A DNA stretch of 64,000 nt from Roseofilum casamattae BLCC-M143 (GTDB taxonomy: Bacteria; Cyanobacteriota; Cyanobacteriia; Cyanobacteriales; Desertifilaceae): NCBI RefSeq assembly GCF_030068455.1, contig NZ_JAQOSQ010000003.1, positions 1-64,000 on the forward strand, written 5' to 3'. Numbering within the stretch: the first letter of the stretch is position 1; every line of letters begins with the position of its first letter. The notes under the pieces were generated by a model. It saw only the letters and a program-made list of their open reading frames with translations. It did no database searches and was not told the DNA's origin. A program made the position numbers and the translations under genes. Positions 18,138 through 63,242 of the stretch are shown in pieces.

Positions 18138-18560
18138 ATCGAGATTATTAAGCACTATGGCGATCTGCCCGAGGTGCAATGTTTCCCAGGTCAACTCAAC
18201 CAGGTGTTTATGAATTTGCTTGCCAATGCTATCGATGCTTTTGATGAAGTCAATCAAGGTAAGAGTTTTGCCGAGATCGAAGCCAATCCCAACCGCATTA
18301 CAATTGAAACCGAAAAACACGATCGGCAACAGGTACGAATCCGAATTACAGACAATGGTTGCGGCATGAAACCGGAAACCGTCGATCGCATTTTCGAGCA
18401 AGGATTTACGACGAAAGCCATCGGTAAAGGAACGGGTTTGGGAATGGCGATCGCCCTTTCAATTATCGAAGAAAAGCATGGGGGGAGAATTCGCTGTCGT
18501 TCTCAATTAGGCAAAGGGACTGAGTTTACCATCGCTATTCCTCTTCATTTTCCTGGGTGA
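18138..18560 (+). pseudogene. C-terminal remnant of a multikinase histidine kinase (ATPase domain only)
   Basis: From 18138 the frame reads IEIIKHYGDLPEVQ, then from 18174 the complete HATPase region: N box (QVFMNLLANAIDAF), G1 box (ITDNGCGMKP) and G2 box (IGKGTGLGMAIAL). It stops at 18560 with the same LHFPG tail as the kinase ending at 35317. The His phosphorylation helix and everything before it are missing. Sequence 5' of 18138 is unrelated. An ATG at 18171 (the MQC of a 128-codon frame starts at 18174 in alternate reading) could make a free ATPase domain, but a remnant of a deleted kinase is more likely. Its divergent residues (FDEVNQGKSFAEIEANPNR) resemble the kinase at 48722 more than its neighbours. 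Confidence 0.8.
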
Positions 18561-18676
18561 TATTACTTAAATACTTGTCAGGAATGACTGACGATCGCTG
18601 GGGGAGTGCGATCGAGATCTCTATTGCGGTGAAGATCGATAACTATAATAATGCCACAGCGATCGAAGCCAGAGAT

Positions 18677-21600
18677 ATGATCCCAGAACTAGCGAACTAT
18701 AAAATCGGCGAAAACATATACCAGGGAACCCGAACCCTAGTCTATCGAGGAGTTCGCTGTTCTGACTCGCTCAAAGTCGTTATCAAATTTTTGCGCAACT
18801 CATATCCGAGCTTTAACGAATTAGTACAGTTTCGCAACCAATATGCCATTGCGAAAAACCTCGATAGTGCAGGAATTCTGCAGCCCTTAAGCCTAGAACG
18901 CTATGGCAATGGTTACGCCTTGGTGATGGAAGATTTAGGGGCTATCTCTCTGGACAAACTATTGACAACAGATGAATTAGACTTAGAACGCTGTTTGGAT
19001 ATAGCCATTCAACTGGCTGAGATATTACAGGAGCTAGACCGGCAACGAGTCATTCACAAAGATATCAAACCCGGTAATATCCTGATTTGTCCGGAAACCC
19101 AACAAGTTAAACTCATTGATTTCAGCATTGCCTCTCTCCTGCCTCGCGAAGCGCAAGAAATAAAAAACTTTAACGTCCTAGAAGGAACTCTAGCCTACAT
19201 TTCCCCGGAACAAACCGGTCGGATGAATAGAGGCATCGACTACCGCAGCGACTTCTATTCTCTGGGAGCCACCTTATACCAACTGTTAACAGGAGTCTTA
19301 CCCTTCAGCAGCACCGATCCAGTAGAGTTGGTACATTGTCATATTTCTCAACAGCCAGTACCACCAGCAGCAAGAAACCCGGTTTCTCAAAGAAACCGGG
19401 TTTCTGGAATACCGCCAGTAGTTTCAGATATTGTAATGAAACTGATGGCTAAGAATGCAGAAGAGCGCTATCAGAGTGCCTTGGGGTTAAAGTTCGATCT
19501 GGAAACTTGTCTGAAGAAATGGAAGGAAACAGGCAAGATAGAACCATTTGAGTTAGCAACTCGGGATATTTCAGGCCGCTTCCTCATTCCCGAAAAACTC
19601 TACGGACGCGCAATAGAAGTCGAGACCTTACTGGCAGCATTCGAGAGAGTGGCAAATCCTAATGCCGAACTCTTCCTTAGTACGGGGAGGCAAGACCGGG
19701 TTGAAATGATGCTTGTTGCCGGATTCTCGGGAATTGGTAAAACCGCCGTCATCAACGAAGTCCACAAACCAATCGTGCGGCAGCGCGGCTATTTTATCAA
19801 AGGGAAATTCGACCAATTCAATCGCAATATTCCCTTTAGTGCCTTCACGATCGCCTTCCGGGATTTAATGAAGCAGTTATTAGCAGAATCAGACAGTAAG
19901 CTAGCCCAGTGGCAGCAAAAGATTCTCTCTGCATTGAGTGAAAACTGCCAAGTTATTATTGACATTATTCCCGAATTAGAACTACTGATTGGCAAACAGC
20001 CTCCCGTTCCCGAACTATCGGGCAGTGCGGCGCAAAATCGCTTTAACCTATTATTTGAAAAATTTATTAAGGTTTTTGCTACAAAAGAGCATCCCTTAGT
20101 TATTTTTATCGATGACCTTCAGTGGGCAGATTCGGCATCCCTGAAATTGATACAACTGCTAATGGGCGAGAGCGAAACGGGTTATCTACTCTTGCTAGGA
20201 GCTTATCGGGATAACGAGGTATATCCCGCCCACCCCTTGATGCTGACCTTAGATGAAATTAGCAACTCGGGAGCGACTATTAATACGATAACTCTGGCTC
20301 CTTTAAGCGCAACAGATATCAATGACTTGGTAGCAGATACTCTTAACTGTAGCCAAGAATTGGCTTGGCCTTTAACGGAATTAATTTATCAAAAGACCAA
20401 GGGCAATCCCTTTTTTGCCACTCAGTTTCTTAAGGCTCTCAATGAAGGTGAATGGATTAGCTACAATTCAGATTTTGGGTATTGGCAGTGCGATATGGCT
20501 TCGGTGCGGCAACTAACGCTGACAGATGATGTCGTGGAATTTATGGCAATTCAGTTACAGAAGTTGCCTCAAGAGACTCAGGAAGTGTTGAAATTAGCTG
20601 CTTGTATTGGCAACCAGTTTGACTTGGAAACTTTGGCTATTGTTAGCGAGCGATCGCCAATAGAAACCGCAACAGCATTGTGGAAGGCATTGCAAGAAAG
20701 GTTAGTATTACCCACCAATGAGGTGTACAAGTTCTATTGTTTTCAGGAAAATACCACCAGTTTATCCGGTTTCGAGGAGCAATCGCCAACTTATAAATTT
20801 TTACATGACAGAGTTCAACAAGCTGCCTATTCTTTGATTCCAGAAAACAAACAAAAAGAAACGCGCTTAAAAATCGGTTATCTACTCTTAAACTATGCCG
20901 ATGCAGAGAAATTATCCGAGCAAACTTTTGAAATTGTCGATCATTTTAATTTTGCTATCGAACTGATCGTCGATCCCTTAGAGCAAAAAAAGGTTGTCCA
21001 GCTCAACTTACAGGCTGGAAAACGTGCAATAGCCGCTACGGCCTATCAAGCGGCAAATAAATATTTAACAGTAGCACTAAGTCTTATAACCGACGACAAC
21101 TGGACAACGAGTTATGATTTAACTCTCGATTTACATATAGAGGCAGCAAATTCTGCTTATCTTCAAGGCGATTACGAAAAAATGGAAACACTGATCGAAG
21201 CTGCGATCGGTAATGCCCATTCAATTCGAGATCGAGTGCAAGCTTATGAAATAAAAATTCAGTCGTCAATGGCTCAAAATAAAAGATTGGAAGCTATTGA
21301 TATTGCTCTTGACTTCCTGGATGAACTAGGAGTGAAAATATCCAAAAATCCTAATGAATCAGACATCAGAAATTCGCTTGAAGAAACTAAGAATATTTTA
21401 GGAGAAACGCAGGTAAAAGACTTGGTCGATCTACCCAAAATGATCGATCCAGAAAAATTAGCAGCACTTCGTATCTTGGCTGCAATTTTTCCGGCAGCTC
21501 ATCAAGCATTTCCTCAGCTATTGCCGATAACAGTTTGCGAACAAATTAAATTATCAATTCAGTATGGAAATTCTCCTATTTCTCCTTTCTCCTATGTTCT

Positions 21601-24127
21601 TTACGGACTTATTCTCTGTGCAACTGTTGGAGATATTGAACTGGGATATCAATTTGGAGAGTTGGCATTAAGTTGTTTGCATGGGGATGATGTTAAACCG
21701 ATAAAATCCAGGACGATTCAAGTCGCTTGTGTCCTGACCAAGCACTGGAAAGAACATCTAAAAGAAACATTGGATTTATTGGAATTAGCTTACCAAGCTG
21801 GTTTAGAGGTTGGCGATTTAGACTTCATAGTTACTTCTGCTTTCGGATACTGCTTTAACTCATTTTTTATGGGTCGAGAGCTTAAATCTCTCGAGCAAAA
21901 AATGAGGTTTTATAGTGAGGCAATATTACGCCTTAAACATAAAACTGTATTCCATCATAACGAAATGTATCGCCAAGTTGTTTTGAACTTACTCGGGCAA
22001 AATAAAGAGACTGTAATGTTGGTAGGTGAAGCTTATAACGAGCAAGAGTTTGTGGAGCTTTATAAAGAAGCAAACGATCGCAATGCGTTAGGTTACTTAT
22101 GTAGCAATAAATTGTTTTTATGTTACTTATTTGGCTATCATACTCAAGCATTTGAAATAGCAGGCGAAGTTCGTGAAAAGTATATAGATGGCTTGACCGG
22201 GTTGCCGATGACTCCTTTCTTTTATTTTTATGATTCTCTGGCTCAAATTGCTGTTTATTTCGATATATCTAAATCCGGTCAAGAAAAAGTTATAGAGCAT
22301 GTTTCTGAAAATCAGGAGAAGATGAAAAAATGGGCATATCATGCTCCCATGAATCATCAGCATAAATTGAATCTAGTAAGCGCTGAAAAGTGCAGAGTAT
22401 TAGGGCAAAAGCTTGAAGCGATAGAATTATACGATCGCGCCATAGCTGGAGCCAAAGAAAACGAGTACATACAAGAAGAAGCCCTGGCCAACGAACTGGC
22501 AGCCAAATTTTACCTCGACTGGGGCTTCGACTCGGCTCAGCCGAACGGTAAAGAAAAAATTGCCCGAGTATATATGACCGATGCCTACTACTGCTATGCT
22601 CGCTGGGGTGCGAAAGCCAAAACTAACCAACTCGAAGCCAAATATCCGCAACTGCTCGCTCCAATTCTGCAACAACCTCCCTTGCAATTACACGGCAGTG
22701 AAACTGCGACCTATACTTTGACGCAAACGGTGGGTTCGAGCAGCAGCAAGATCGGCTCGATGCTTGATTGGGCAACGGCGATGAAAGCATCTCAGTCTCT
22801 ATCGAGCGAAATTCACCTGGATAAACTGGTCGCAGCTTTAATGAAAGCAGCGATAGAAAATGCCGGAGCGGACGGCGCTATTTTGCTTTTAAAGCAACAA
22901 GAAACTTGGAAAATTGTAGCTCGATGTTCGGGAGAAGGCTGTGATTTGTGTGCGACTGAAGCATCAGACGAGAGCAAGATTCCAATGAGTGTCATTAATA
23001 AGGTCAAACGCAGTAAAGAAGCAATTATTATTAACGACTTTCCTCGCGATACTCAGTTTGCAGGCGACCCTTATTTGTTGCAAGGACAAACCCTTAGTTT
23101 CTTGTGCGTGCCGGTTCTCAATCAAGGCAAACTCGTCGGCGTCCTCTATCTGGAGAACTATCTAGCCGTGGGAGCTTTTACGAGCGATCGCGTGGAACTC
23201 CTTTCTATGCTCTGTTCCCAAGCCGCTATCTCTCTGGAAAATGCCCGTCTGTACCAACAAGCGCAACAAGCGTTAACCGACTTACAAAAAGCACAACTGC
23301 AACTGGTGCAAAGCGAGAAGATGTCGGCTTTGGGCAACTTGGTTGCGGGAGTGGCCCACGAAATAAATAATCCGGTGGGATTTATTGCTGGAAACCTAGA
23401 TCCAGCTCAAGATTACTTAAAAGACTTGTTCGGACTCATTAACCTTTATCAGGAGAAATATCCCGAGCCTGATGCCGAAATAGAAGAAGAAATTGAAGCG
23501 ATAGACTTGGAATTTTTGCGCGACGATTTACCGCAATTAATCTCTTCCATGCGCGAAGGAACCGATCGCATTCGCCACATTAGCACGTCCCTACGCACCT
23601 TCTCGCGCACGGACAAAGAATACAAAGTTCCGTTTAATGTGCATGAGGGTCTTGACAGTACCTTGCTCATTTTGAAACATCGCCTGAAAGCCAACGAAGA
23701 GCGTCCGGACATTGAAATTATCAAAGAGTACGGACAATTGCCAGAAGTGCAATGTTTCCCCGGACAGCTCAACCAAGTGTTTATGAATCTAATTGCTAAT
23801 GCCATCGATGCATTAGATGAAGGAAATAACGGACGTAGCTTTGATGAGATTGCCGCTCGGCCCAATCAAATTGAGATTCGCACCTTCATCGAACACCAGC
23901 AAGTAAAAATCTGTATTAGGGACAATGGTATGGGAATGCCTGAGGAAGTGCAAGAGCGCATCTTCGAGCAAGGGTTTACCACGAAAGGAGTGGGGAAAGG
24001 TACGGGCTTGGGAATGGCGATCGCCCAGCAAATCATTGTGGACAAACATGGCGGCCGGATTACCTGTAGTTCGGAACCGGGCCGGGGAACGGAATTGGCG
24101 ATCGCTATTCCTACTGAATCGAATTAG
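18677..24127 (+). CDS. Multikinase K1: Ser/Thr kinase - AAA ATPase - helical region - GAF - histidine kinase
   Basis: 1816 residues, cytoplasmic, of the HstK type known from Nostoc/Anabaena. Kinase domain about 7-270: IHKDIKPGNILI (about 125) is the catalytic loop and LIDFSIASLLP replaces DFG by DFS. AAA-type ATPase with Walker A GFSGIGKTAV (about 348) and Walker B LVIFIDDLQWADS (about 474). Long TPR-like helical region to about 1300, ending in YDRAIAGAKENEYIQEEALA. GAF about 1371-1524. H box with His1561 in GVAHEINNP, then a complete HATPase. No receiver. ATG 18677 was chosen over an earlier in-frame ATG because the upstream sequence matches the non-coding spacer before K4, where the frame is different. 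A palindromic repeat (19373-19405) is built into the kinase domain. Confidence 0.92.
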   Translation: MIPELANYKIGENIYQGTRTLVYRGVRCSDSLKVVIKFLRNSYPSFNELVQFRNQYAIAKNLDSAGILQPLSLERYGNGYALVMEDLGAISLDKLLTTDELDLERCLDIAIQLAEILQELDRQRVIHKDIKPGNILICPETQQVKLIDFSIASLLPREAQEIKNFNVLEGTLAYISPEQTGRMNRGIDYRSDFYSLGATLYQLLTGVLPFSSTDPVELVHCHISQQPVPPAARNPVSQRNRVSGIPPVVSDIVMKLMAKNAEERYQSALGLKFDLETCLKKWKETGKIEPFELATRDISGRFLIPEKLYGRAIEVETLLAAFERVANPNAELFLSTGRQDRVEMMLVAGFSGIGKTAVINEVHKPIVRQRGYFIKGKFDQFNRNIPFSAFTIAFRDLMKQLLAESDSKLAQWQQKILSALSENCQVIIDIIPELELLIGKQPPVPELSGSAAQNRFNLLFEKFIKVFATKEHPLVIFIDDLQWADSASLKLIQLLMGESETGYLLLLGAYRDNEVYPAHPLMLTLDEISNSGATINTITLAPLSATDINDLVADTLNCSQELAWPLTELIYQKTKGNPFFATQFLKALNEGEWISYNSDFGYWQCDMASVRQLTLTDDVVEFMAIQLQKLPQETQEVLKLAACIGNQFDLETLAIVSERSPIETATALWKALQERLVLPTNEVYKFYCFQENTTSLSGFEEQSPTYKFLHDRVQQAAYSLIPENKQKETRLKIGYLLLNYADAEKLSEQTFEIVDHFNFAIELIVDPLEQKKVVQLNLQAGKRAIAATAYQAANKYLTVALSLITDDNWTTSYDLTLDLHIEAANSAYLQGDYEKMETLIEAAIGNAHSIRDRVQAYEIKIQSSMAQNKRLEAIDIALDFLDELGVKISKNPNESDIRNSLEETKNILGETQVKDLVDLPKMIDPEKLAALRILAAIFPAAHQAFPQLLPITVCEQIKLSIQYGNSPISPFSYVLYGLILCATVGDIELGYQFGELALSCLHGDDVKPIKSRTIQVACVLTKHWKEHLKETLDLLELAYQAGLEVGDLDFIVTSAFGYCFNSFFMGRELKSLEQKMRFYSEAILRLKHKTVFHHNEMYRQVVLNLLGQNKETVMLVGEAYNEQEFVELYKEANDRNALGYLCSNKLFLCYLFGYHTQAFEIAGEVREKYIDGLTGLPMTPFFYFYDSLAQIAVYFDISKSGQEKVIEHVSENQEKMKKWAYHAPMNHQHKLNLVSAEKCRVLGQKLEAIELYDRAIAGAKENEYIQEEALANELAAKFYLDWGFDSAQPNGKEKIARVYMTDAYYCYARWGAKAKTNQLEAKYPQLLAPILQQPPLQLHGSETATYTLTQTVGSSSSKIGSMLDWATAMKASQSLSSEIHLDKLVAALMKAAIENAGADGAILLLKQQETWKIVARCSGEGCDLCATEASDESKIPMSVINKVKRSKEAIIINDFPRDTQFAGDPYLLQGQTLSFLCVPVLNQGKLVGVLYLENYLAVGAFTSDRVELLSMLCSQAAISLENARLYQQAQQALTDLQKAQLQLVQSEKMSALGNLVAGVAHEINNPVGFIAGNLDPAQDYLKDLFGLINLYQEKYPEPDAEIEEEIEAIDLEFLRDDLPQLISSMREGTDRIRHISTSLRTFSRTDKEYKVPFNVHEGLDSTLLILKHRLKANEERPDIEIIKEYGQLPEVQCFPGQLNQVFMNLIANAIDALDEGNNGRSFDEIAARPNQIEIRTFIEHQQVKICIRDNGMGMPEEVQERIFEQGFTTKGVGKGTGLGMAIAQQIIVDKHGGRITCSSEPGRGTELAIAIPTESN
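19373..19405. repeat. Perfect 15-base inverted repeat inserted in frame in K1
   Basis: Arms AGAAACCCGGTTTCT and AGAAACCGGGTTTCT are exact reverse complements around CAA; each arm is itself nearly palindromic. It encodes RNPVSQRNRVS in a loop of the kinase C-lobe. The paralog at 24266 has a different linker of similar length there. This palindrome type is common between genes in cyanobacteria, so it looks like a mobile-type short repeat captured by the coding frame. Confidence 0.85.
22526..22549 (+). repeat. Single in-frame 24-base repeat unit in K1
   Basis: Encodes FDSAQPNG between DWG and KEK, exactly where K3, K5 and K7 have no insertion (DWGKEK). The stretch GGCTTCGACTCGGCTCAGCC has complementary ends GGCT/AGCC and is related to the unit at 52559-52654. 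Confidence 0.7.
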
Positions 24128-27200: not shown

Positions 27201-29671
27201 TTGAAACAGCATCGCTCAAGAGCCAAGTATTTAATCTAGTTTATCAGTTGATTGAGCCTTGGAAAAATCATCTCAATCAATGCCTGATTCCATTGTTAGA
27301 TGGATTTAAGTTTGGCATTGAAAACGGAGATTTAATTTATGCCAGCTACAATTCAGTAGATTATTGCATTAATTTATTGTTGAACGGTCATAATCTCGAG
27401 GACTTATTACAAAAGCAAACATTTTATATTGATTTCTTTCAGAAAAAGAAAATTGGTTACACGATCAACATAATGAATGTTTGCAAGCAATTTAATTTGA
27501 ATTTACAAGGGATGGTAGAGGATGTATGCAAGCTGACAGGAGAGGCAATGGACGAAGAATTATTACTGTCAAGACTGCCAGAAATAAATGATACTTGGGC
27601 TTTGTTCATATTGCATATTGTTAAAGAAATTTTGCTATATCTATTCGGCGATTATGCTGAATCAGCAGTTCAGTCAGTACGTGCCGAAGAATATACCTCT
27701 TCTGTTGGGGGATGGATTCCAATTTCAGTCCATAACTTATATGATTCTCTGTCTCTACTTGCTCTGTATCCAAATGCTAATAATATAGACAAACAGCAAT
27801 ATTTAAAAAAGGTAGCTGCCAATCAAGAAAAAATGCTGCGTTGGGCAAAACATGCCCCAATGAATTACCAACATAAATACGATCTAGTTGAAGCAGAGCT
27901 ACATCGTGCTTTAGACAACAAGACGGAAGCGATCGCACTCTACGATCGGGCGATCGCCGGAGCTAAAGAAAATGGCTTTGTCCAAGAAGAAGCCCTAGCC
28001 AACGAACTGGCAGCCAAATTTTACCTAGATTGGGGCTTCGACTCGGCTCAGCCGAACGGCAAAGAAAAAATCGGCCGAGTCTATATGACGGATGCCTACT
28101 ACGGCTACAGCCACTGGGGAGCTAAGGCCAAAATCGACCAACTCGAAGCCCAATATCCGCAACTGCTCGCTCCGATTCTGCAACAGTCCCGCTTCGAGTT
28201 ACAAAACGATCGCAGTGCAACTTACACTTTAACCCAAACGGTGAGTGCCAGTAGCAACAAGCTCGGCTCAATGCTCGATTGGGCAACGGCGATGAAAGCC
28301 TCCCAGTCCCTATCGAGCGAAATCCACTTGGACAAACTGGTCTCGATCTTGATGAAGGCAGGGATGGAAAATGCCGGAGCAGATTCAGGTATCCTGCTTT
28401 TACAGCAACCTTCTGGTTGGCAGATTGCTGCCCGACACTCGCAAGAAGGTCGCAATTTGCATTCGATCAAGGGAGAGGATCTCGCTATTCCGACAAGCGT
28501 CATTAATAAAGTCAAACGCAGACAAGAAACAATTATTGCGAATGATGTCCCGAGCGATACTGAGTTTGCCAGAGACTCATATCTGATGCAAGGACAACCG
28601 AAAAGCTTCCTGTGCGCGCCGCTCCTCAATCAAGGCAAACTTATCGGCATCATCTATCTGGAAAACCATCTGGCCACCGGAGCTTTTACGAGCGATCGCG
28701 TGGAACTCCTTTCTATGCTCTGTTCCCAAGCAGCAATATCTCTGGAAAACGCCAGACTCTATAAGCAATCCCAAGACTACGCACAGAAACTGGAAAACTC
28801 TCTGGCCGATCTACAGATGGCGCAACTGCAACTGGTGCAAAGCGAGAAAATGTCAGCCTTAGGTAACTTGGTTGCCGGAGTGGCCCACGAAATTAATAAT
28901 CCCGTTGCATTTATTGCTGGAAACCTAGACCCAGCAAGAGATTACCTAGACGATTTATTCCGGATAATTGACCTTTATCAGCAAGAACTACCGCATCCGA
29001 GCAAAGCAATTGAGGAAGAAATCGAAGCGATAGACTTAGAATTTCTGCGCGATGATTTACCGCAATTAATCTCTTCCATGCAGGAAGGAACCGATCGCAT
29101 TCGCCACATTAGCACGTCCCTACGCACCTTCTCGCGCACGGACAAAGAATATAAAGTTCCGTTTAATGTGCATGAGGGTATTGACAGTACCTTGCTCATT
29201 CTCAAACATCGCCTGAAAGCTAACGAAGAGCGTCCGGACATTGAAATTATCAAAGAGTACGGACAATTGCCAGAAGTGCAATGCTTTCCCGGACAGCTCA
29301 ATCAAGTATTTATGAATCTAATTGCTAATGCGATCGATGCATTAGATGAAGGAAATAACGGACGTAGCTTTGATGAGATTGCCGCTCGGCCCAATCAAAT
29401 TGAGATTCGCACCTTCATCGAACACCAACAAGTAAAGATCTGTATTAGGGACAATGGTACGGGAATGCCCGAGGAAGTGCAAGAGCGAATTTTTGAGCAA
29501 GGATTTACCACGAAAGGAGTGGGGAAAGGTACGGGTTTGGGAATGGCGATCGCCCTTTCAATTATCGAAGAAAAGCATGGAGGTAGAATTAGCTGTCATT
29601 CTGAATTAGGCAAAGGGACTGAGTTTGCGATCGCTATTCCTTTAGATGAGAAGCCATCAATTACAGATTAG
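24266..29671 (+). CDS. Multikinase K2: Ser/Thr kinase - AAA ATPase - helical region - GAF - histidine kinase
   Basis: 1801 residues starting MTIELSGYQIGENIYEGTRT, the shortest N-terminus of the group. Closest to K1 in the kinase, ATPase and GAF parts. Catalytic loop IHKDIKPANILI (about 125), DFS at about 147, and APEQTGRMNR where the others have SPEQ. Walker A about 333, Walker B about 458, helical region to about 1260, GAF about 1340-1495, phosphoacceptor His1541. The 3' block 29204-29641 is almost identical to 34862-35299 of K3, with only a few base differences, which points to recent duplication or gene conversion. The C-terminal tail (LDEKPSITD) differs from that of K3. An in-frame 24-base repeat unit is present at 28037-28060. 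Confidence 0.92.
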   Translation: MTIELSGYQIGENIYEGTRTLVYRGTRRSDAQKVVIKLLRNSYPSFSELLQFRNQYAIAKNLDSARILQPLSLERYGNGYVLVMEDVGAISLDKLLTTEELDLERCLDIAIKLADILHELDRERVIHKDIKPANILIEPETKNIKLIDFSIASLLPREAQEIKNFNILEGTLAYIAPEQTGRMNRGIDYRSDFYALGVTLYQLLTGNLPFSSTDPVELVHCHISQQPIPPAEVTNKKSNIEIPLVVSDIVMKLMAKNAEERYQSALGLKFDLENCLKQWKETGKIEAFELATRDIARHFLIPEKLYGREAEVKTLLAAFEWVAEGQSEMMLVAGFSGIGKTAVINEVHKPIVRQRGYFIKGKFDQFNRNIPFSAFVQAFRDLMEQLLAESDSKLAQWQDKIIAALGENGQVIIDVIPELEQLIGKQPPVPELSGSAAQNRFNLLFQKFIQVFTTKEHPLVIFLDDLQWADSASLNLMQLLTAESQTIYLLLLGAYRNNEVFPAHPLMLTLEEIVKLGASIKTITLEPLSDTDLNGLVAETLSCSREVASPLTELIYQKTKGNPFFATQFLKGLYEDGFITFDRDRGYWFCDMIEVQQSALTDDVVEFMVSRLHKLPEATQEILKLAACIGNQFNSETLSIINKQSQMEVAADLWEALQEGLVLPIGDTYKFFQENEPEEKIQELGLSVTYKFLHDRVQQAAYSLIPEEQGKVTHLQIGQLLLGNYQKSERDDRIFDIVNQLNIGRELILRQIERNELARLNLQAGNKAKASTAYNSALEYLKTGIELLASESWQTEYKLTLALYTEATESSYLNAEFEAAENYSDRVLEQVEDILDAIKIYDLKIQKNIAEENAFEALEIGLQALNCLGMSRDEIIDYGKVEILLPTIEELEKIPEMTDPYQLALMQLLVSITTAALSVDPELLSSVVATQVHISLASGNSNWTAFSYAWYGAILCADFEYIEKGDRSAKLAMYLLEKFETASLKSQVFNLVYQLIEPWKNHLNQCLIPLLDGFKFGIENGDLIYASYNSVDYCINLLLNGHNLEDLLQKQTFYIDFFQKKKIGYTINIMNVCKQFNLNLQGMVEDVCKLTGEAMDEELLLSRLPEINDTWALFILHIVKEILLYLFGDYAESAVQSVRAEEYTSSVGGWIPISVHNLYDSLSLLALYPNANNIDKQQYLKKVAANQEKMLRWAKHAPMNYQHKYDLVEAELHRALDNKTEAIALYDRAIAGAKENGFVQEEALANELAAKFYLDWGFDSAQPNGKEKIGRVYMTDAYYGYSHWGAKAKIDQLEAQYPQLLAPILQQSRFELQNDRSATYTLTQTVSASSNKLGSMLDWATAMKASQSLSSEIHLDKLVSILMKAGMENAGADSGILLLQQPSGWQIAARHSQEGRNLHSIKGEDLAIPTSVINKVKRRQETIIANDVPSDTEFARDSYLMQGQPKSFLCAPLLNQGKLIGIIYLENHLATGAFTSDRVELLSMLCSQAAISLENARLYKQSQDYAQKLENSLADLQMAQLQLVQSEKMSALGNLVAGVAHEINNPVAFIAGNLDPARDYLDDLFRIIDLYQQELPHPSKAIEEEIEAIDLEFLRDDLPQLISSMQEGTDRIRHISTSLRTFSRTDKEYKVPFNVHEGIDSTLLILKHRLKANEERPDIEIIKEYGQLPEVQCFPGQLNQVFMNLIANAIDALDEGNNGRSFDEIAARPNQIEIRTFIEHQQVKICIRDNGTGMPEEVQERIFEQGFTTKGVGKGTGLGMAIALSIIEEKHGGRISCHSELGKGTEFAIAIPLDEKPSITD
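28037..28060 (+). repeat. Single in-frame 24-base repeat unit in K2
   Basis: Same position and same peptide (FDSAQPNG) as in K1, inserted between DWG and KEK. Ends GGCT/AGCC are complementary, as in K1. Confidence 0.7.
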
Positions 29672-35317: not shown

Positions 35318-35434
35318 TATTACTTAAGTACTTGTAAGGAATGACTGACGATCGCTGGGGGAGTGCGATCGAGATCTCTTTGGAGGCGAAAATCGAAGGC
35401 TATAATTAATTCCACCGCGATCGAAGCCAGAGAT
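35318..35434 (+). repeat. Spacer duplicated from 18561-18676
   Basis: The bases after the stop of K3 repeat those after the remnant at 18560: TGATATTACTTAA, TACTTGT, then a run through the ACGATCGCTGGGGGAGTGCG segment, up to GCGATCGAAGCCAGAGATATG at the next start. A few substitutions and a short length change put the two upstream frames out of register, which shows that this spacer is not coding. It marks the edge of a segmental duplication that joined a kinase end to a kinase start. Confidence 0.8.
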
Positions 35435-40900: not shown

Positions 40901-41292
40901 ATGAATGCTATCTCGACCCCACTGCCTAAAATTCTCAATTATCAAACCAGCGAACTCATCTTAAAAGCGATCGCACCGTCGTTTATCGCGATCGCAATGG
41001 ATAAAATAGACGCTCGATCTCGATCGCATGAATGCACGATGAATATCCTTTTTTGGGAGAATTAGTTCGATTTCGCGATCGCTATACCATTATCAAAAAT
41101 CTAGAAATAGACAAGATTGTCAAACCTTACGCTTTAGAGTGCGACGAGAATTGCGATGCTTCGATCGCAGAAGATACAGGAAGCATAATTTTTAGCAGAA
41201 TACAATATCTTGCTATTGAGCAATTAAATTGGACAGTCCGGATTGCATCAGTTAAGAAACTTATGCTATCAGACGAACTCCTATCTCTCTAA
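40901..41292 (+). pseudogene. N-terminal remnant of a multikinase (K5-like), frameshifted and truncated
   Basis: ATG 40901 opens MNAISTPLPKILNYQTSELIL, matching the K5 start (MNAISTDLPKIGNY). The frame is then broken near 40960-41030. Homology resumes at 41032 in YPFLGELVRFRDRYTII, then NLEIDKIVKPYALECDEN, which equal the K5 kinase N-lobe. After about 41200 the similarity ends. Catalytic residues are absent. The matching C-terminal end of such a kinase survives at 42850-42915, beyond the small histidine kinase gene. Confidence 0.85.
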
Positions 41293-54274: not shown

Positions 54275-54347
54275 GCGATCGCTGGTTGGAGGTGATGGCC
54301 GGGGCTGTTTGAGATGAGGGTTACTGCTTGCCTGGCTATACTCTCGC

Positions 54348-54353
54348 TATAAT
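54348..54353 (+). promoter_or_regulatory. Candidate -10 box upstream of the rhodanese gene
   Basis: A TATAAT lies 60 bases before ATG 54414. A TTGCCT upstream is only 14 bases away, too close for a standard -35. Weak support. Confidence 0.3.
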
Positions 54354-54413
54354 TAGAATCTATGCGGTAACCTCGCTCTGCGGAAAAAAAAATCTGTTCG
54401 TCATTTATCCCCT

Positions 54414-54953
54414 ATGCCATCACTATTTCAACACCTTCAATCAATTCTACTCTCCAGTACTCGTCTGTTTAGCGGACTGACCCAAAAAGATCGCCAACCT
54501 CAAGTCCCATCTTGGCCAAGCCTGAAGGCGCAAATTCGAGCTGAGTTTCCGACTGTTAAACATATTGGAATTACAGATCTTGAACAGCACTTGCTCCCAA
54601 CACAACAGGAGAAAACACTCATTGTTGATGTGCGCGCACCCGAAGAATTTGCGGTGAGTCATCTCAAAGGAGCCGTGAATCTGGAAGACCCTGAAGCCAT
54701 TCTTCAACTCGCTCAACAACAACAAGCCGAACAGATCGTTCTCTACTGTTCGGTAGGTTATCGTTCTGCGCAGATGGCACAAATGATAGAAGAGCAAGGT
54801 TGGGATGCAGTGGTTAACTTTGAAGGCTCCATTTTTGAATGGGCCAATTCCGGTCGCCCGGTTTTCCTGAAGAGCGAAGAAGTAGAGGTTGTTCATCCTT
54901 TCGATCCTGTCTGGGGGAAACTACTCGATGGGCAATATCACCCGACAGAATGA
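54414..54953 (+). CDS. Rhodanese-like domain protein
   Basis: 179 residues. Single rhodanese domain (about 48-145) with LIVDVRAPEEFAVSHLKGAVNL and the active-site loop YCSVGYRSAQMA, whose Cys would carry the persulfide. The first 45 residues are weakly hydrophobic then basic, without a clear signal peptide. It could be a sulfurtransferase or a sulfane-sulfur sensor. It sits between K6 and the membrane histidine kinase on the same strand (gaps of about 140 and 65 bases), which leaves open a link between sulfur or redox state and the kinases. That link is speculative. Confidence 0.9.
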   Translation: MPSLFQHLQSILLSSTRLFSGLTQKDRQPQVPSWPSLKAQIRAEFPTVKHIGITDLEQHLLPTQQEKTLIVDVRAPEEFAVSHLKGAVNLEDPEAILQLAQQQQAEQIVLYCSVGYRSAQMAQMIEEQGWDAVVNFEGSIFEWANSGRPVFLKSEEVEVVHPFDPVWGKLLDGQYHPTE

Positions 54954-55018
54954 GTACTCCTTGCTCCGATATAACAGTGAAAGTGTTAATTTATTTATGA
55001 GATTTAGTATTGTTGTAA

Positions 55019-57097
55019 ATGCACAATATTTTTACGAATGAAATCGCTTTTGACCCACTTTTACAACCCTACCGAGAACGTGCCGATCGCATCATGGTAG
55101 GGATGAATTTTTTTTTATGCCTCATTTGCATTGCTCTCATCCCTTTGCACCATACAGAGATTGCAGTATTGAGCATTGGAATGCCAACCTTATTAATTTC
55201 AGTATGGCTAAGGTATTATCATTCCGGCACATTAGCTACTCGACTATTTATGGCTTGTGGCTTCATGATTTATACAGCCTTAATTATTCATCAAAATGTT
55301 GGCGTGACTGAAGCCCATTTCTCTGCCTTTGGTTTAATCGGTATACTTCTTTACTATCGAGATTGGCGTACCATTCTTGCTGCTACAGTAACTATTTATC
55401 TACACCATCTCATTCTTGGCTATGCTCAAACGTTGGGTTGTCCTATCTATGTATTTGCAAACCCCCATTTTTGGTTGATGTTTTGTAGCCATATTCTCTA
55501 CTTTCTCCCCTTTGTTGGCATGATGTTATATCTTTCTATTTGGTTGCGTCGAGAAGGATATGAAAACCAACAGGATCTAAAGGCTCTTAGGGAAGTAGAA
55601 CAGGAATTAACCAAACTCAATGAATTACTAGAAAATCGGGTAGAAGAGCGAACGAAGGAACTAGTTGTTGCGAAAGAAAAAGCGGAAGTGGCCAACCAAG
55701 CGAAAAGCTCCTTTATCGCCAATATGAGTCACGAATTACGAACGCCTCTCAATGCGATTTTGGGATTTGCTCAGATTATGACGCGATCGCAAACTCTTCC
55801 CTCAGAACACCAAGAAAGCGTTGGCATTATTAACCGCAGTGGAGAGCATCTTTTGACCCTAATTAATAACATTCTCGACCTCTCTAAAATTGAAGCCGGA
55901 CGTATAACTCTGAACGAGAAAAACTTCGATCTGCATCGCTTGCTCGACGACCTTCACGATATGTTCCAACTCAAAGCCAGCGACAAAGGTTTGCAGTTGC
56001 TTTTAGAATCTGAAGAAAATCTGCCTCGCTACATTCGCACCGATGAAGTCAAACTGCGGCAAATCCTGATTAATTTAATTAACAACGCCCTCAAATTTAC
56101 CGAACAAGGGGGCATTTCTGTCAAAGTCACTCACCAGTTAGAGAAGCAACAGCCAACCACCATACATTTTGCAGTCGAAGACACCGGAGCTGGCATTGCC
56201 CCTGAAGAACTCGACCAGCTCTTTGAAGCGTTTACTCAAACGGCAAGCGGCAAACAAGCCCAAGAAGGAACCGGACTCGGACTCTCCATCAGTCGTAAAT
56301 TTGTGCAATTAATGGGAGGAGACATACAGGCAACCTCTCGCGTGGGAGAAGGAACGGTCTTTAGCTTCGAGATTCAATGTCTGGAAGTAGAAAGCACCGA
56401 TGTGGAAGCATTAAACAGTCAACGGCGCATTATTGCTCTCGAACCGGGTCAACCTCGCTATCGCCTGCTTATTGTCGATGATAAACCAGTCAATCGCCAA
56501 CTATTAATTCATTTGCTCGGTCCTTTAGGTTTCGAGTTGCAAGAAGCCAGTAATGGTAAAGAAGCTGTGGAAGTGTGGGAGCAATGGGAACCCCATCTGA
56601 TTTGGATGGATATGCGGATGCCGGTGATGGATGGATTTGAAGCGACTAAAACGATCAAAGCCACGACCAAAGGACAAGCCACGGCGATCGTGGCCTTAAC
56701 TGCTAGCGTCTTGGAAGAAGAGCGGGCAGTAGTATTATCAGCCGGATGCGATGATTTCCTGCGCAAACCCTTCCGAGACGAGGAAATATTTCAAGCTCTA
56801 GAAAAATATCTAGAGGTGCGTTATATCTACGAAGAGAAAGCACCTTCTTCTGAGAATGAGGCTCTACAAAAAGAAGTGCTGACTGCCGAAAATGTGCAAG
56901 CTTTGTCCCCAGAATTACAGAAGCAATTGCGTCAGGCAGTTATTAGTAGTAGTCAAAAACAAATTGCGGTAGTTGTGGCAGCGATCGCCGAAACAAATCT
57001 GACTTTGTCGGAAGCGATCGCCTCTCGTTTATATAACTTTGAATATGACAAGATTTTGCAATTAATTCCCAATACAAAGGAACCACTTTCATCCTAA
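55019..57097 (+). CDS. Membrane hybrid histidine kinase with receiver domain
   Basis: 692 residues. About six membrane segments (27-172) form an integral sensor, then a coiled coil (about 180-225). The HisKA domain has His238 in NMSHELRTPLNAIL. The HATPase has NLINNALKF, DTGAGIAPEE and GTGLGLSISRK. A receiver domain begins LLIVDDKPVN (about 480) with phosphoacceptor Asp531 in WMDMRMPVMDGFEA. A short C-terminal helical extension ends near IPNTKEPLSS. From 55743 to 57072 the DNA aligns gap-free to 61906-63235 at the end of K7 with few differences. Apart from K7, it is the only protein of the cluster with a receiver. Confidence 0.94.
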   Translation: MHNIFTNEIAFDPLLQPYRERADRIMVGMNFFLCLICIALIPLHHTEIAVLSIGMPTLLISVWLRYYHSGTLATRLFMACGFMIYTALIIHQNVGVTEAHFSAFGLIGILLYYRDWRTILAATVTIYLHHLILGYAQTLGCPIYVFANPHFWLMFCSHILYFLPFVGMMLYLSIWLRREGYENQQDLKALREVEQELTKLNELLENRVEERTKELVVAKEKAEVANQAKSSFIANMSHELRTPLNAILGFAQIMTRSQTLPSEHQESVGIINRSGEHLLTLINNILDLSKIEAGRITLNEKNFDLHRLLDDLHDMFQLKASDKGLQLLLESEENLPRYIRTDEVKLRQILINLINNALKFTEQGGISVKVTHQLEKQQPTTIHFAVEDTGAGIAPEELDQLFEAFTQTASGKQAQEGTGLGLSISRKFVQLMGGDIQATSRVGEGTVFSFEIQCLEVESTDVEALNSQRRIIALEPGQPRYRLLIVDDKPVNRQLLIHLLGPLGFELQEASNGKEAVEVWEQWEPHLIWMDMRMPVMDGFEATKTIKATTKGQATAIVALTASVLEEERAVVLSAGCDDFLRKPFRDEEIFQALEKYLEVRYIYEEKAPSSENEALQKEVLTAENVQALSPELQKQLRQAVISSSQKQIAVVVAAIAETNLTLSEAIASRLYNFEYDKILQLIPNTKEPLSS
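55743..57072 (+). repeat. 1330-base module duplicated at 61906-63235
   Basis: Covers the second half of HisKA, HATPase, receiver and C-terminal extension. The two copies keep a constant offset of 6163 bases from end to end, so no insertion or deletion separates them. Only scattered substitutions are visible. Upstream of the block the two proteins share only the ELxVAKEKAE coiled-coil pattern. Confidence 0.92.
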
Positions 57098-57185
57098 AAA
57101 TTCCCCAGCGCTCGCTGTGACGGAAAATAGGGCATACTAAAGATTAGTGCAAGCGCAACTTGGGTTAAGCTCAAACCGAACGATA

Positions 57186-60100: not shown

Positions 60101-63100
60101 AGAAGCCTATGAATTTTGTCGTGTCGCACTAGATTTCGACCGTACTTTCCACAACACCCAATTTATCGGAAAAAATAACAATGCATTCGCCAATCATATT
60201 GCTCCATATGTTCGTCCGCTCGCAGAAAACTTGATTTTATATTCACATTCCATTCAAGTTTGTGCTGAAGTCGGAGATTTGATCTATGGTGTATGGGCTG
60301 CTTTCCTCCTCATCTGGACTCATTTGCTCATCGGAACTCCTTTGCCTTTCGTTGAAGAGGAAATTCAAAAATATATTGACTATGTCCGAAATGTAAACGA
60401 CCAGAACATCCTGAATATTTTTGAACGTCAACACCAACTTGTTCGAGAATTAATGGATAATACGGTTGAGGATGGAACGCTAACCTTGAAAGGATTTGTT
60501 GATAGTCCATTCTTGGAGAATTGGAGAAAGATAAAATTCGATCATGGGATCAACTGGTATGGTTTTCTCGTCTTAAAACGGCTTTATCTGAAAGGGAATT
60601 ACGAGCAAGCCTTGCAGGTCGCTCAATTATTACAAACCACATTGCCGGGAAACAGCGGTCTGTTTCCCATTATTACTTATCACGTTTACTATCCCCTCAG
60701 TCTGAGTGCGGTCTATTCGGCAGCAGACGGTGCAACTCAGACGATTTATTTGCAGCAAATACAAGAACAACAGCAAATACTTCAGAAGTTCTCAGAAAAC
60801 TGTTCGTACAATTTCCTGCACAAATATCAATTAATTTCGGCAGAAATAGCTCGTCTCAATGGCGATCGTATGCAGGCAATGGAGCTATACGATCGCGCCA
60901 TAGCAGGAGCAAAAGAAAATGAATACATTCAAGAAGAAGCCTTAGCTAACGAACTCGCTGCCAAATTCTATCTCGACTGGGGCAAGGAAAAAATAGCAGC
61001 GACCTACATGCAAGAAGCATACTACTGCTACACTCGCTGGGGAGCCAAAGTCAAAACCGACCATCTCGAAGCCAACTACCCTCAATTGTTGCTTCCTATT
61101 CTGCAACAACAACAGGTTGAATTTAACCCAATAGACAGCCTTGCCAATTTAACGCAAATATTAACATCAACGCTCCAAAGCCAAACCCAAAGCAGTACCA
61201 ATATCTCTGAAGCCCTGGACTTTGGCTCCATTGTGCAAGCGGCTCAGAAACTCTCGAACACCATTGAATTAGAGAAACTTCTGGCAGATATTACTCAGAT
61301 TATTCTCACCAATGCGGGAGCCGAAAAAATAGCTTTGTTGGTTCCCGACGAACAACAATGGCAGATTCAAGCTAGGGCAGAACTGGCTAGCGATGGGACG
61401 GTTGTAACCCAAACTTCAGCCGAATCTCTGACCCCAGAAAGTCCAGTTCCAATTCGTTTAATTCAATATGTCAAAAATACCCAAAAACCGGTTCTGATCG
61501 ATGAAGGAAAAACTGACATATCGGGAATTTTGGAAGGCTATCTGCTCGAGCAACAACCGCAAAGCGTCTTTTGTATTCCGCTGCTCAATCAAGGAGAATT
61601 GGTCGCCATTATCTATCTCGAACACGCCACTACCAAAGGAGTATTCACCACCAACCGCCAAACCATTATTGAGTTCCTTTGTGCGCAAGCAGCAGTGGCA
61701 TTACAGAATGCCAAGCTTTATAGCCAAGCTCAAAAATCCCAATGGCAGGCAGAACAGGCATTAAGCGAACTCCAGCAAGCCCAACTTCTATTGGAACAAA
61801 AAGTGATAGAGCGCACTGCCGAACTGGCCGTTGCGAAAGAAAAAGCCGAGGATGCCAACAAAGCCAAAAGTCAGTTTATTGCTAATATGAGCCATGAATT
61901 GCGATCGCCTCTCAATGCGATTTTGGGATTTGCTCAGATTATGACGCGATCGCAAACTCTTCCCTCAGAACACCAAGAAAACGTCGGCATTATTAACCGC
62001 AGTGGAGAGCATCTTTTAACCCTAATTAATAATGTCCTCGACCTCTCCAAAATCGAAGCCGGACGCATAACTCTGAATGAGAAAAACTTCGATCTGCATC
62101 GCTTGCTCGACGACCTTCACGATATGTTCCAACTCAAAGCCAGCGACAAAGGTTTGCAGTTGCTTTTAGAATCTGAAGAACATCTGCCTCGCTACATTCG
62201 CACCGATGAAGTCAAACTGCGGCAAATCCTGATTAATTTAATTAACAACGCCCTCAAATTTACCAAACAAGGAGGCATTTCTGTCAAAGTCACTCACCAG
62301 TTAGAGAAGCAACAGCCAACCACCATACATTTTGCAGTCGAAGACACCGGAGCTGGCATTGCCCCTGAAGAACTCGACCAGCTCTTTGAAGCCTTTACTC
62401 AAACGGCAAGCGGCAAACAAGCCCAAGAAGGAACCGGGTTGGGACTCTCCATCAGTCGTAAATTTGTGCAATTAATGGGAGGAGACATACAGGCAACCTC
62501 TCGCGTGGGAGAAGGAACGGTCTTTAGCTTCGAGATTCAATGTCTGGAAGTAGAAAGCACCGATGTGGAAGCATTAAGCACCCAACGGCGCATTATTGCT
62601 CTCGAACCGGGTCAACCTCGCTATCGTCTTCTAATTGTCGATGATAAACCAGTCAATCGCCAACTATTAATTCATTTGCTCGGTCCTTTAGGCTTCGAGT
62701 TGCAAGAAGCCAGTAATGGTAAAGAAGCTGTGGAAGTGTGGGAGAAATGGGAACCTCATTTAATTTGGATGGATATGCGGATGCCGGTGATGGATGGATT
62801 TGAAGCGACTAAAACGATCAAAGCCACGACCAAAGGACAAGCCACGGCGATCGTGGCCCTGACTGCCAGCGTCTTGGAAGAAGAACGGGCAGTGGTATTA
62901 TCGGCAGGATGCAATGATTTCCTGCGCAAACCTTTCCGAGACGAGGAAATATTTCAAGCCCTAGAAAAACATCTAGAGGTGCGTTATATCTACGAAGAGA
63001 GCGGGCCTTCCTCGAAGAATGAGGCTCCACAAAAAGAAGTGCTGACTGCTGAAAATGTGCAAGCTTTGTCCCCAGAATTACAGAAGCAATTGCGTCAGGC

Positions 63101-63242
63101 AGTTATTAGTAGTAGTCAAAAACAAATTGCGGTAGTTGTGGCAGCGATCGCCGAAACAAATCTGACTTTGTCGGAAGCGATCGCCTCTCGTTTATATAAC
63201 TTTGAATATGACAAGATTTTGCAATTAATTCCCAACGAGTAA
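57186..63242 (+). CDS. Multikinase K7: Ser/Thr kinase - AAA ATPase - helical region - GAF - hybrid histidine kinase with receiver
   Basis: 2018 residues from ATG 57186 (MNTPSISLPNYQIADP), chosen over an in-frame start at 57147 that lacks homology to the paralogs. Kinase loop IHKDIKPANILI about 129, DFS about 148, Walker A about 328, Walker B about 456, GAF about 1348-1511. The C-terminus does not carry the AHEINNP-type kinase of K1-K6. Instead it has the MSHELRSPLN type with His1570, followed by a receiver with Asp1863, taken from or given to the neighbouring membrane kinase. No 24-base insertion (DWGKEKIAATY). All domains look intact, giving Ser/Thr, His and Asp phosphorylation sites in one chain. 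Confidence 0.93.
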   Translation: MNTPSISLPNYQIADPIYSGSRTLVYRAIRIPDERAVIIKILRNPHPHFNELLGFRNQYAIATNLDSPYIVRPLALERYGSGYALVMPDEGAISLSEYWQASVSDLTTFLEISIQLADVLHYLTQQRIIHKDIKPANILIHPETGQVQLIDFSIASLLPKEQQQLVNPNVLEGTLAYISPEQTGRMNRGIDYRTDFYSLGVTLYELLTGLLPFSSDDLMELIHSHIAQKVQFPSDRKIPHVLQTILLRLMAKNAEERYQSALGLKHDLEQCLRSLQDMGEIAEFELGERDICDRFIIPEKLYGRETELQTLLEAFEDVANGTSKMMLVAGFSGIGKTAVINEVHKPIVEKRGYFIKGKFDQFNRNIPFSAFVQAFRDLMGQLLSELDEELANWKSKILAALGENGQVLIDVIPELERVIGQQPPATELSGTAAQNRFNLLFQKFIAVFTTPEHPLVMFLDDLQWADSASLNLMKVLMGESQTGYLLLLGAYRDNEVFPAHPLMLTLSDLEKQEAAISTITLAPLPVSDINQLIAETLSCSSRLAQPLTELVYQKTKGNPFFTTQFLKGLYEDELLVFNFSLGYWECDLVKVRDAALTDDVVEFMARRLQKLPQVAQKVMKLAACIGNQFDLETLAIVCESSVKEAATDLWVALQEGLILPRTEAYKFFQAGDRDESYSDEIAVSYRFLHDLVQQAAYSLIADDRKQPVHLKIGQLLLAHQSNGEQEDNDNIFSILNHLMMGIDADPSSIPVTQLAELALSAGMKAKLSIAYQAAIEYFNFGRSRLPEDAWNTHYRLMLDLNREKAECDYLVGRFEESESILNEALTKAQSPLDSAQIYVILMNQSITQGTNISAGVDAGIKGLAILGLKLSTDTATLEPLVEEELQQVRDTFDRVPPRILLELPEMSDPVQQSLMELLSTLWTISFVSGNQFLGWFLTLRMINLSIKYGRAPSSSLTYSFYAVALANEEHYQEAYEFCRVALDFDRTFHNTQFIGKNNNAFANHIAPYVRPLAENLILYSHSIQVCAEVGDLIYGVWAAFLLIWTHLLIGTPLPFVEEEIQKYIDYVRNVNDQNILNIFERQHQLVRELMDNTVEDGTLTLKGFVDSPFLENWRKIKFDHGINWYGFLVLKRLYLKGNYEQALQVAQLLQTTLPGNSGLFPIITYHVYYPLSLSAVYSAADGATQTIYLQQIQEQQQILQKFSENCSYNFLHKYQLISAEIARLNGDRMQAMELYDRAIAGAKENEYIQEEALANELAAKFYLDWGKEKIAATYMQEAYYCYTRWGAKVKTDHLEANYPQLLLPILQQQQVEFNPIDSLANLTQILTSTLQSQTQSSTNISEALDFGSIVQAAQKLSNTIELEKLLADITQIILTNAGAEKIALLVPDEQQWQIQARAELASDGTVVTQTSAESLTPESPVPIRLIQYVKNTQKPVLIDEGKTDISGILEGYLLEQQPQSVFCIPLLNQGELVAIIYLEHATTKGVFTTNRQTIIEFLCAQAAVALQNAKLYSQAQKSQWQAEQALSELQQAQLLLEQKVIERTAELAVAKEKAEDANKAKSQFIANMSHELRSPLNAILGFAQIMTRSQTLPSEHQENVGIINRSGEHLLTLINNVLDLSKIEAGRITLNEKNFDLHRLLDDLHDMFQLKASDKGLQLLLESEEHLPRYIRTDEVKLRQILINLINNALKFTKQGGISVKVTHQLEKQQPTTIHFAVEDTGAGIAPEELDQLFEAFTQTASGKQAQEGTGLGLSISRKFVQLMGGDIQATSRVGEGTVFSFEIQCLEVESTDVEALSTQRRIIALEPGQPRYRLLIVDDKPVNRQLLIHLLGPLGFELQEASNGKEAVEVWEKWEPHLIWMDMRMPVMDGFEATKTIKATTKGQATAIVALTASVLEEERAVVLSAGCNDFLRKPFRDEEIFQALEKHLEVRYIYEESGPSSKNEAPQKEVLTAENVQALSPELQKQLRQAVISSSQKQIAVVVAAIAETNLTLSEAIASRLYNFEYDKILQLIPNE

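Follow-up and report, generated by a model that had tools for sequence, protein, structure and literature searches.

Evidence for exchange of kinase ends between neighbouring genes in a tandem cluster of HstK-type dual kinases from Roseofilum casamattae

The array genes and their domains

The DNA analysed here, referred to below as the window, comprises positions 1 to 64,000 of contig NZ_JAQOSQ010000003.1 of Roseofilum casamattae BLCC-M143 (assembly GCF_030068455.1), and the system in question is a tandem array of HstK-type dual kinase genes. Between 18557 and 63242 on the + strand, the listing of open reading frames (ORFs) contains seven intact large ORFs, A1-A7, of 1801-2031 codons when counted, as they are throughout, from the longest start. 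An initial annotation of the window had described seven intact giant kinases in tandem on one strand, and these are indeed present, with the Ser/Thr-kinase motifs (catalytic Lys and HxD) and the P-loop intact in each. The lengths that it gave, 1787-2018 residues, are recovered if A4 starts at an internal ATG, residue 25, and A7 at residue 14. The array genes are as follows; residue numbering refers to A2.

18557..24127, + strand: A1, HstK-type dual kinase, 1856 codons
24266..29671, + strand: A2, HstK-type dual kinase, 1801 codons, AAA-WH-TPR part modelled
29873..35317, + strand: A3, HstK-type dual kinase, 1814 codons, TPR region partly matching Pfam TPR_CHK1
35363..40798, + strand: A4, HstK-type dual kinase, 1811 codons
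42994..48477, + strand: A5, HstK-type dual kinase, 1827 codons
48722..54274, + strand: A6, HstK-type dual kinase, 1850 codons
57147..63242, + strand: A7, HstK-type kinase with a hybrid histidine kinase-receiver tail, 2031 codons

A Pfam scan of A1-A7 found Pkinase, AAA_16, GAF and HATPase_c in all seven, which upholds the HstK-type identity first assigned to them, and HisKA is listed in all seven as well. The DFG motif of the Ser/Thr kinase is replaced by DFS or DLS in every copy. The histidine-kinase H, N, G1 and G2 motifs occur in A1-A6, and A7 carries another type of histidine kinase together with a receiver. By domain content (an N-terminal Ser/Thr kinase, GAF and a C-terminal HisKA-HATPase_c) A1-A7 belong to the HstK/cbSTKIII family, and both kinase activities are predicted. 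The order of domains, as read from the sequences, is a Hanks kinase, a STAND-type NTPase, a TPR superhelix, GAF and a histidine kinase; the modules are abbreviated below as PK (Ser/Thr kinase), AAA, WH (winged helix), TPR, GAF and HK (histidine kinase).

Kinship of the modules and exchange between neighbours

The domain-by-domain comparison and trees that the initial annotation had proposed as a check were run, and the modules give conflicting accounts of kinship. In PK, A1/A4 are 83% identical; in GAF, A3/A5 are 81% identical; in HK, A1/A2/A3 are 88-92% and A4/A5 93% identical. The groupings are A1+A2+A4 in PK, A3+A5 and A1+A2 in GAF, and A1-A2-A3 and A4-A5 in HK; TPR yields none, its identity being 29-45% across all 21 array pairs. 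The best HK match lies inside the array for A1-A6, and the best TPR match lies outside it for all seven, by a margin of just 2-5 points for A1, A3, A5 and A6. Within this genome near pairs are more alike than far pairs, and the number of shuffles out of 2000 that reached the observed difference was 0 for PK, 0 for AAA, 2 for HK, 5 for WH, 9 for GAF and 111 for TPR. One 1768-aa protein that is not an HstK, C3_68m, was in the set of 28 ORFs and is an outlier in the TPR tree; it was removed from the near/far and motif counts.

In the HK tree (49 rows, SH-aLRT support), from which 23 rows of another HK type, A7 among them, were omitted, A1-A2-A3 is supported at 99 and A4-A5 at 97. In the TPR tree (74 rows) A2 groups with a copy from contig C17 (C17_62m) and with copies from the genomes G001 and G002 (99), A4 falls in a seven-row group from other loci and species (100), A7 pairs with the copy C5_51p (100), A1, A5 and A6 are placed at support 83-89, and A3 stands alone in an 18-row group (95). 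Rows with less than 60% of the module and all those of genome G006 were omitted from both trees. In approximately unbiased (AU) tests, with 27 hand-picked rows (23 with a PK part) and clades chosen after the trees were seen, TPR data reject the A1-A3 clade (p 6e-8) and the A4-A5 clade (p 2e-73). Taken both ways, HK clades are rejected by TPR data and TPR clades by HK data, with p from 9e-5 to 1e-103, and PK data also reject A1-A3 and A4-A5.

Silent sites locate the likeness more closely. Over the last 145 codons the synonymous divergence (dS) is 0.02 for A2/A3 (residues 1651-1795) and 0.17 for A4/A5, whereas elsewhere in the same pairs it runs from 0.84 to saturation and from 0.58 to saturation, respectively. 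In TPR it is 2.5 or more, and mostly saturated, for 21 of 21 array pairs. All 53 silent polymorphic codons in the last ~145 residues are the same in A2 and A3. Runs of identical silent sites were assessed on the 481 silent polymorphic codons of A1-A6, A7 being excluded, with 5000 shuffles in which the longest run in any pair served as the control. The A2/A3 run of 54 codons (residues 1650-1789) and the A4/A5 run of 62 codons (A2 residues 1612-1763) were each reached by 0 of 5000 shuffles, and an A1/A2 run of 25 codons by 1. No run in the remaining 12 pairs of A1-A6 passes the any-pair control at 5%; the best of them, 15 codons in A1/A4 at 44-78, was reached by 416 of 5000 any-pair shuffles and by 1 of 5000 shuffles of its own pair. 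The A2/A3 tract lies as follows.

29213..29632, + strand: A2 tract matching A3 at every silent polymorphic codon, A2 residues 1650-1789

Because the modules disagree on their relatives and silent sites are identical in tracts, exchange of kinase ends between neighbours is the conclusion to be drawn: as far as sequence comparison can show, some neighbouring copies have exchanged these ends, via gene conversion or unequal crossing-over, each keeping its own TPR core. Concerted evolution is marked by paralogues within a genome whose likeness exceeds that of orthologues, in tracts and with silent sites included, and this pattern was found in the HK modules of A1-A6 and in the silent runs.

The tail of A7 points to an exchange with a gene of another kind, a hybrid kinase that stands directly before it in the array.

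61821..63235, + strand: A7 tail matching the neighbouring hybrid kinase; the matching part of the neighbour is 55658-57072
55019..57097, + strand: intact hybrid histidine kinase, 692 aa, HisKA-HATPase_c-receiver, N-terminus hydrophobic by eye

Nucleotides 4675-6089 of A7 and 640-2054 of the hybrid kinase gene are 95.3% identical over 1416 columns. The same hybrid type occurs in the cluster on contig C5, at 80-83%, as separate genes between HstK genes. Since it stands as a separate gene there too, A7 is likely to be the recipient of the hybrid tail, and the gene at 55019-57097 its source or partner. The exchange would have given A7 a hybrid HK-receiver output.

The spared TPR core and copies in other genomes

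High-identity tracts, defined as within-genome matches of at least 200 bp and at least 84% nucleotide identity, were mapped onto A2 for this genome and two same-genus species. This threshold was chosen second, after at least 90% over at least 150 bp had given none in G001, G002 and G006, and all 21 tracts found (5, 7 and 9 across the three genomes mapped) rest on it; the lowered search covered ORFs of at least 250 aa in G001, G002 and G006 and of at least 1500 aa in this genome, and tracts with a gene in common do not count as independent. Mean tract coverage is 12.0 in HK, 5.9 in GAF, 3.4 in AAA, 3.3 in the TPR end, 2.0 in WH, 1.8 in PK and 0.0 in the TPR core, so that in the three genomes the core (A2 residues 761-1195) is entered by 0 of 21 tracts. 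Orthologous TPR cores of G001 and G002, paired as reciprocal best TPR matches of at least 60%, are 91-97% identical in 8 of the 11 pairs listed, and recent exchange through the core would therefore be visible. Family-wide, the entropy of the TPR core is about 2.1-2.8 bits, compared with 0.7-1.9 for AAA-WH. Within the superhelix variability is high from about A2 residue 860 to 1190 and sharply lower in the last helices (1198-1284); the linker that follows is variable.

Public clusters of HstK genes show a comparable contrast in several cases. In five of them (L049, L058, L061, L081 and L094) PK, GAF or HK is 70-95% identical in at least one pair, with TPR at 25-47%. Two examples come from other genera: neighbours in L061 are 95% identical in PK and 36% in TPR, and in L081 GAF is at 90% and TPR at 38%. 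The between-locus background medians are 57 for PK, 53 for HK and 34 for TPR. A further five clusters (L042, L057, L076, L083 and L114) show a weaker contrast or none.

The 5.1 Mb genome, in 74 contigs, holds 27 HstK matches at E ≤ 1e-200, with clusters on C3 (the seven, plus one on the opposite strand 15 kb on), C5 (5), C18 (4), C17 and C22. Two to four HstK genes were found together in 13 of the 69 public loci listed that have a same-strand ORF of at least 1500 aa; a fourteenth apparent cluster, L095, was not counted, its second ORF being unrelated. The statement in the initial annotation that such genes are usually dispersed is thus only partly right. HstK genes are widespread among filamentous cyanobacteria, and finding them clustered is not unusual. 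Matches were found in 11 of the 12 genomes searched, this one included, and one same-family genome has none; among the matches listed, at least 584 of 586 pattern matches on GTDB contigs encode HstK relatives, and all 79 retained public loci are titled as cyanobacterial. Damaged copies occur elsewhere in the genome: the kinase tail of C5_51p is interrupted by an in-frame stop, and a copy on C23 is split into two ORFs. The former (L023, C5 51346-56592), in which the stop falls in the histidine kinase, is 68% identical to A7 in TPR and in GAF.

In five same-genus species, where the same locus was sought and copy numbers compared as had been suggested at the outset, we found 19, 16, 4, 6 and 6 HstK matches at E ≤ 1e-200; the counts of 19 and 16 are rough, as they include contig-end pieces and pieces of one broken gene. 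The upstream pair ahcY-exoD is kept in all five (exoD 76-79%, ahcY 88-92%), and at the same E limit no HstK match lies on their ahcY-exoD contigs or on those with the best match to the downstream lipase; the ahcY contig of G002 is merely 4.1 kb long and says little on HstK linkage. With no match on the ahcY-exoD contigs of the relatives, no conserved site for the array is seen, and the idea of one was dropped, the lipase contigs being equally devoid of matches. Judging from these comparisons the array gains and loses copies, and the birth and death of copies that had been proposed is borne out by match numbers that differ strongly within the genus.

Each of the five same-genus species has a whole-gene orthologue of one dispersed copy, C8_167m; identity is 67-69% in TPR and 77-79% in HK. 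As TPR is just moderately less conserved among these orthologues, fast TPR evolution as the sole source of diversity is rejected, and much of the TPR diversity of the array is to be ascribed to old paralogy. The earlier description of a rapidly evolving locus is therefore just half right, the process at work here being the exchange of kinase ends.

Two relics of lost HstK copies lie among the array genes, with two further genes of other kinds.

18129..18560, + strand: relic 1, an isolated HATPase_c tail left by a lost HstK copy, 74% aa identity to A2 and 90% nt identity over 177 bp to the A3 end
40901..41292, + strand: relic 2, the broken start of the kinase from a lost HstK copy, with stops and frame changes, 75% nt identity to A5 over 258 bp
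41360..42835, + strand: separate intact GAF-HisKA-HATPase_c histidine kinase, 491 aa (Pfam)
54414..54953, + strand: rhodanese-domain protein, 179 aa, no kinase fragment (Pfam)

The initial annotation had reported a truncated relic and, with no coordinates given, a split pseudogene. Relics there are, and the segments 41360-42835 and 54414-57097 are not debris: the latter holds the rhodanese gene and the intact hybrid kinase. The kinases at 41360-42835 and 55019-57097 were likewise ruled out as pseudogene pieces, both being intact and of other kinds; the former is 41-50% identical to the HstK tails compared.

Several smaller features were recorded. Within A6, at 52558-52655, a perfect 24-bp repeat of 4.1 copies runs in frame (DFGSAQSK units). 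A 16-mer from it occurs once (0-1 mismatches) in each of A1, A2 and A4 at the corresponding place, and it has 8 matches in the window as compared with none in 100 shuffles; the repeat looks like a mobile short element in the linker of the TPR end. A promoter and terminator scan of 40700-57200 gave a yield no higher than in shuffles. Directly upstream of the array, at 16889-17964, a PIN-domain ORF and a small partner ORF are followed by a partial second copy of the partner; we read the pair as toxin-antitoxin-like from its sequence. On the - strand lie a penicillin-binding protein with an N-terminal FHA domain (6786-9038), possibly a reader of phospho-Ser/Thr, and a large adenylate/guanylate cyclase rich in PAS (430-3075).

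The STAND module, rival explanations and known systems

A model of the AAA-WH-TPR part of A2, built with 88 sequences (pLDDT 88.4, pTM 0.83), consists of an NTPase, a winged helix, which is a reading of the secondary structure, and a long alpha-superhelix. Its best Foldseek match is PH0952, a TPR-sensor STAND protein (6mfv, E 2.5e-9), followed by Apaf-1 and, lower, by ORC/Cdc6, CED-4 and NLRs. STAND proteins are marked by a Walker A motif, a DD-type Walker B, hhGRE, a sensor I Arg and GxP. Among the 27 copies in this genome Walker A and GxP are present in 27, hhGRE in 26, Walker B in 25, sensor I in 24 and a winged-helix pattern in 18; A6 lacks the sensor I pattern and A1 reads LYGRA. By these motifs, and by the winged helix and repeat-type sensor that follow the nucleotide-binding domain (NBD) in the A2 model, A1-A7 qualify as predicted STAND NTPases.

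We know of no ligand for the HstK family. As far as the literature available to us describes TPR-sensor STANDs, an inducer on the sensor lifts autoinhibition and opens the nucleotide-binding module, leading to multimerisation (PMC6468293). By analogy, each array protein would be a STAND-type switch with a kinase at either end: an inducer, either a small molecule or a protein, would bind the TPR core, the STAND module would open in response, allowing ADP/ATP exchange and oligomerisation, and the histidine kinase would be driven in this way, the Ser/Thr kinase acting as modulator or second output. On this view the cluster would amount to a set of different sensors mounted on one common, interchangeable kinase chassis. 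The best explanation of the data, and in our judgement a probable one, is a tandem cluster of HstK/cbSTKIII genes with turnover of copies, in which neighbours have exchanged kinase ends and private TPR sensors are carried on a shared chassis.

Several observations weigh against this explanation. The stricter search, at 90% over 150 bp, gave 0 tracts in G001, G002 and G006 with 16 copies each, and G006 is without tracts even at 84%; among the long HstK tracts of this genome just A2/A3 exceeds 90% (91.5%), the others being at 88.7 and 89.0%. Not every adjacent pair is homogenised (HK A3/A4 65%, A6/A7 25%), and the AU test on PK leaves A1-A2-A4 at p 0.365, a clade that is absent from the free tree. 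In two G001/G002 pairs TPR is at 66 with GAF/HK at 96/96, and at 80 with 93/96, which suggests that TPR cores can diverge or be replaced within an otherwise conserved gene; the reverse case is found in G001 C72 and G005 C109, with TPR at 83 and HK at 58. In the public clusters L068, L071 and L108 the likeness extends to TPR (60-84%), which places them nearer to plain duplication. HisKA is below the Pfam cut-off in A5, at the cut-off in A3 and barely above it in A1 and A4. Finally, the TM-scores on the query are low (0.12-0.29 among the 50 matches listed), which would not be surprising for chains of several domains joined by hinges, and a profile of the 88 sequences found 0 matches among PDB sequences at E 0.01.

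The most serious alternative is mechanical. Recombination needs long near-identical stretches and would homogenise the conserved ends while being unable to act on the diverged TPR core, with no selection for sensor diversity. This account predicts the same tract map, and it is in keeping with the family-wide variability of the core and with tracts that lie mostly in the conserved kinase tail. Against it, the close TPR cores of G001 and G002 indicate that recent whole-gene copies would show. L108 shows that whole-copy duplication occurs, and neither finding decides between selection and lack of homology. We give the mechanical account somewhat less than an even chance. The single strand, head-to-tail order and relics would also suit a history in which one gene was recently duplicated in tandem and the TPR cores of the copies then diverged fast, no exchange taking place. 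Such a course is very improbable and already contradicted, for A2, A4 and A7 have TPR cores whose lineages extend to other loci or species, the modules conflict over kinship, and silent sites too are identical in short tracts. Purifying selection as the sole cause of likeness in the kinase ends has next to no chance: protein parts of the family are strongly conserved (AAA to the TPR end was examined), but dS drops inside the gene to 0.02-0.17, silent runs reach 54 and 62 codons, and within this genome neighbours resemble each other more than dispersed copies do, in PK with 0 and in HK with 2 of 2000 shuffles reaching the difference. Conservation as the cause is refuted by the silent sites for A2/A3 and A4/A5.

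Two further possibilities concern the assembly and the function. Several G001/G002 contigs end within HstK genes, and the family seems hard for assemblers, so that short-read collapse or chimeras might have made the array or its shared tracts. This is very unlikely, as the array lies inside a 347-kb contig, its longest exact direct repeat is 278 bp, just 18 repeat pairs reach at least 60 bp, and the tracts are 88-95% identical over their whole length, not 100%. An NLR-like anti-phage receptor cluster, whose TPR cores recognise invaders, would agree with fold relatives of the STAND-TPR part that include NLRs, Apaf-1 and RdrA, and with clustered genes of variable copy number and private sensors; we regard it as improbable. 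PADLOC was consulted for 4 of the 9 window kinases. For A2, A4 and A7 the best 25 of the 33-34 families matched by each protein, PD-T4-6 and mad6 among them, all fall within the Ser/Thr kinase region, the longest match reaching residue 354, as would be expected of a Hanks kinase; a single weak match (E 2e-6) was obtained for the HK of the hybrid kinase, and among the matches listed for the four none is a full-length match to a defence protein. With PADLOC matches confined to the Ser/Thr kinase region, filing the array as an anti-phage defence system was rejected. No defence system was recognised in a Pfam scan of ten neighbour proteins, on which PADLOC was not run, and known HstK members are tied to nitrogen and iron responses in the parts of PMC2176072 available to us.

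The explanation by exchanged kinase ends and private TPR sensors would have wider implications. The tract map marks the TPR core (A2 ~761-1195) as what distinguishes the copies and the ends as interchangeable, and it is a testable guide for domain swaps and ligand screens. We read the evolution of the array, by analogy, as NLR-like, in the sense of "shared chassis, private sensor", and as a bacterial counterpart to the way NLR clusters evolve. It is a tentative and rather unlikely extension that filamentous cyanobacteria keep NLR-like repertoires of dual-kinase receptors, in which selection preserves private TPR sensors, gene conversion refreshes the kinase chassis and recombination between neighbours makes new sensor-output combinations. 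If true, the tract map and the like contrast in the clusters of several genera would be a general rule for the HstK family, and new combinations such as the receiver output of A7 would arise through neighbour recombination.

Plant and fungal NLR clusters consist of STAND receptors that change in copy number, with homogenised shared parts and diverse sensor repeats. The array resembles them in clustered STAND receptors, variable copy number, homogenised shared parts and diverse repeats, and is unlike them in that much of its diversity is old and any immune role hypothetical. Fungal group X hybrid histidine kinases (CHK1 type) combine a kinase-related domain, GAF, HK and a receiver in one protein; we know of no tandem arrays of their genes. 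A likeness to this type is seen in the match of A3 to Pfam TPR_CHK1 (E 1.2e-8) and in the receiver of A7. In what could be consulted of PMC4965123, group X, a Ser/Thr kinase-related domain and GAF are each named and are not tied together. PH0952 and MalT, from the portion of PMC6468293 available, share with the array proteins the NBD, winged helix, TPR-like superhelix, P-loop, DD Walker B and a GxP-like motif; here a pair of protein kinases is the predicted output in place of a DNA-binding domain.

The closest known system is the HstK family itself, and the initial suggestion of an undescribed system does not stand. According to the accessible part of PMC2176072, HstK was described in 2001, and the family followed in 2007 as cbSTKIII in 21 species, where the trees of the kinase, GAF and HisKA domains were reported to be incongruent and domains to have been shuffled. 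Its members Alr2258 and Alr0709-Alr0710, a neighbouring pair, likewise have an N-terminal Ser/Thr kinase, GAF and a C-terminal histidine kinase (PMC2176072, same part). Among the matches listed in our literature searches we found no silent-site evidence of exchange between neighbouring HstK genes, no sparing of the TPR core, and nothing on the HstK family in work on gene conversion in histidine kinases; a search for HstK architecture in clusters found no paper, and the word kinase is absent from the main text, as far as it was available, of a genome-wide study of prokaryotic concerted evolution (PMC6053082). Compared with the known HstK/cbSTKIII proteins, the array stands out by its seven consecutive genes, by the signs of exchange between neighbours at silent sites, by the tract map, by TPR cores private to each copy and, in A7, by a hybrid HK-receiver output shared with the adjacent gene. 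What appears to be new here, on the sequence evidence, is not a system but silent-site exchange between neighbouring HstK genes and its absence from the TPR core.

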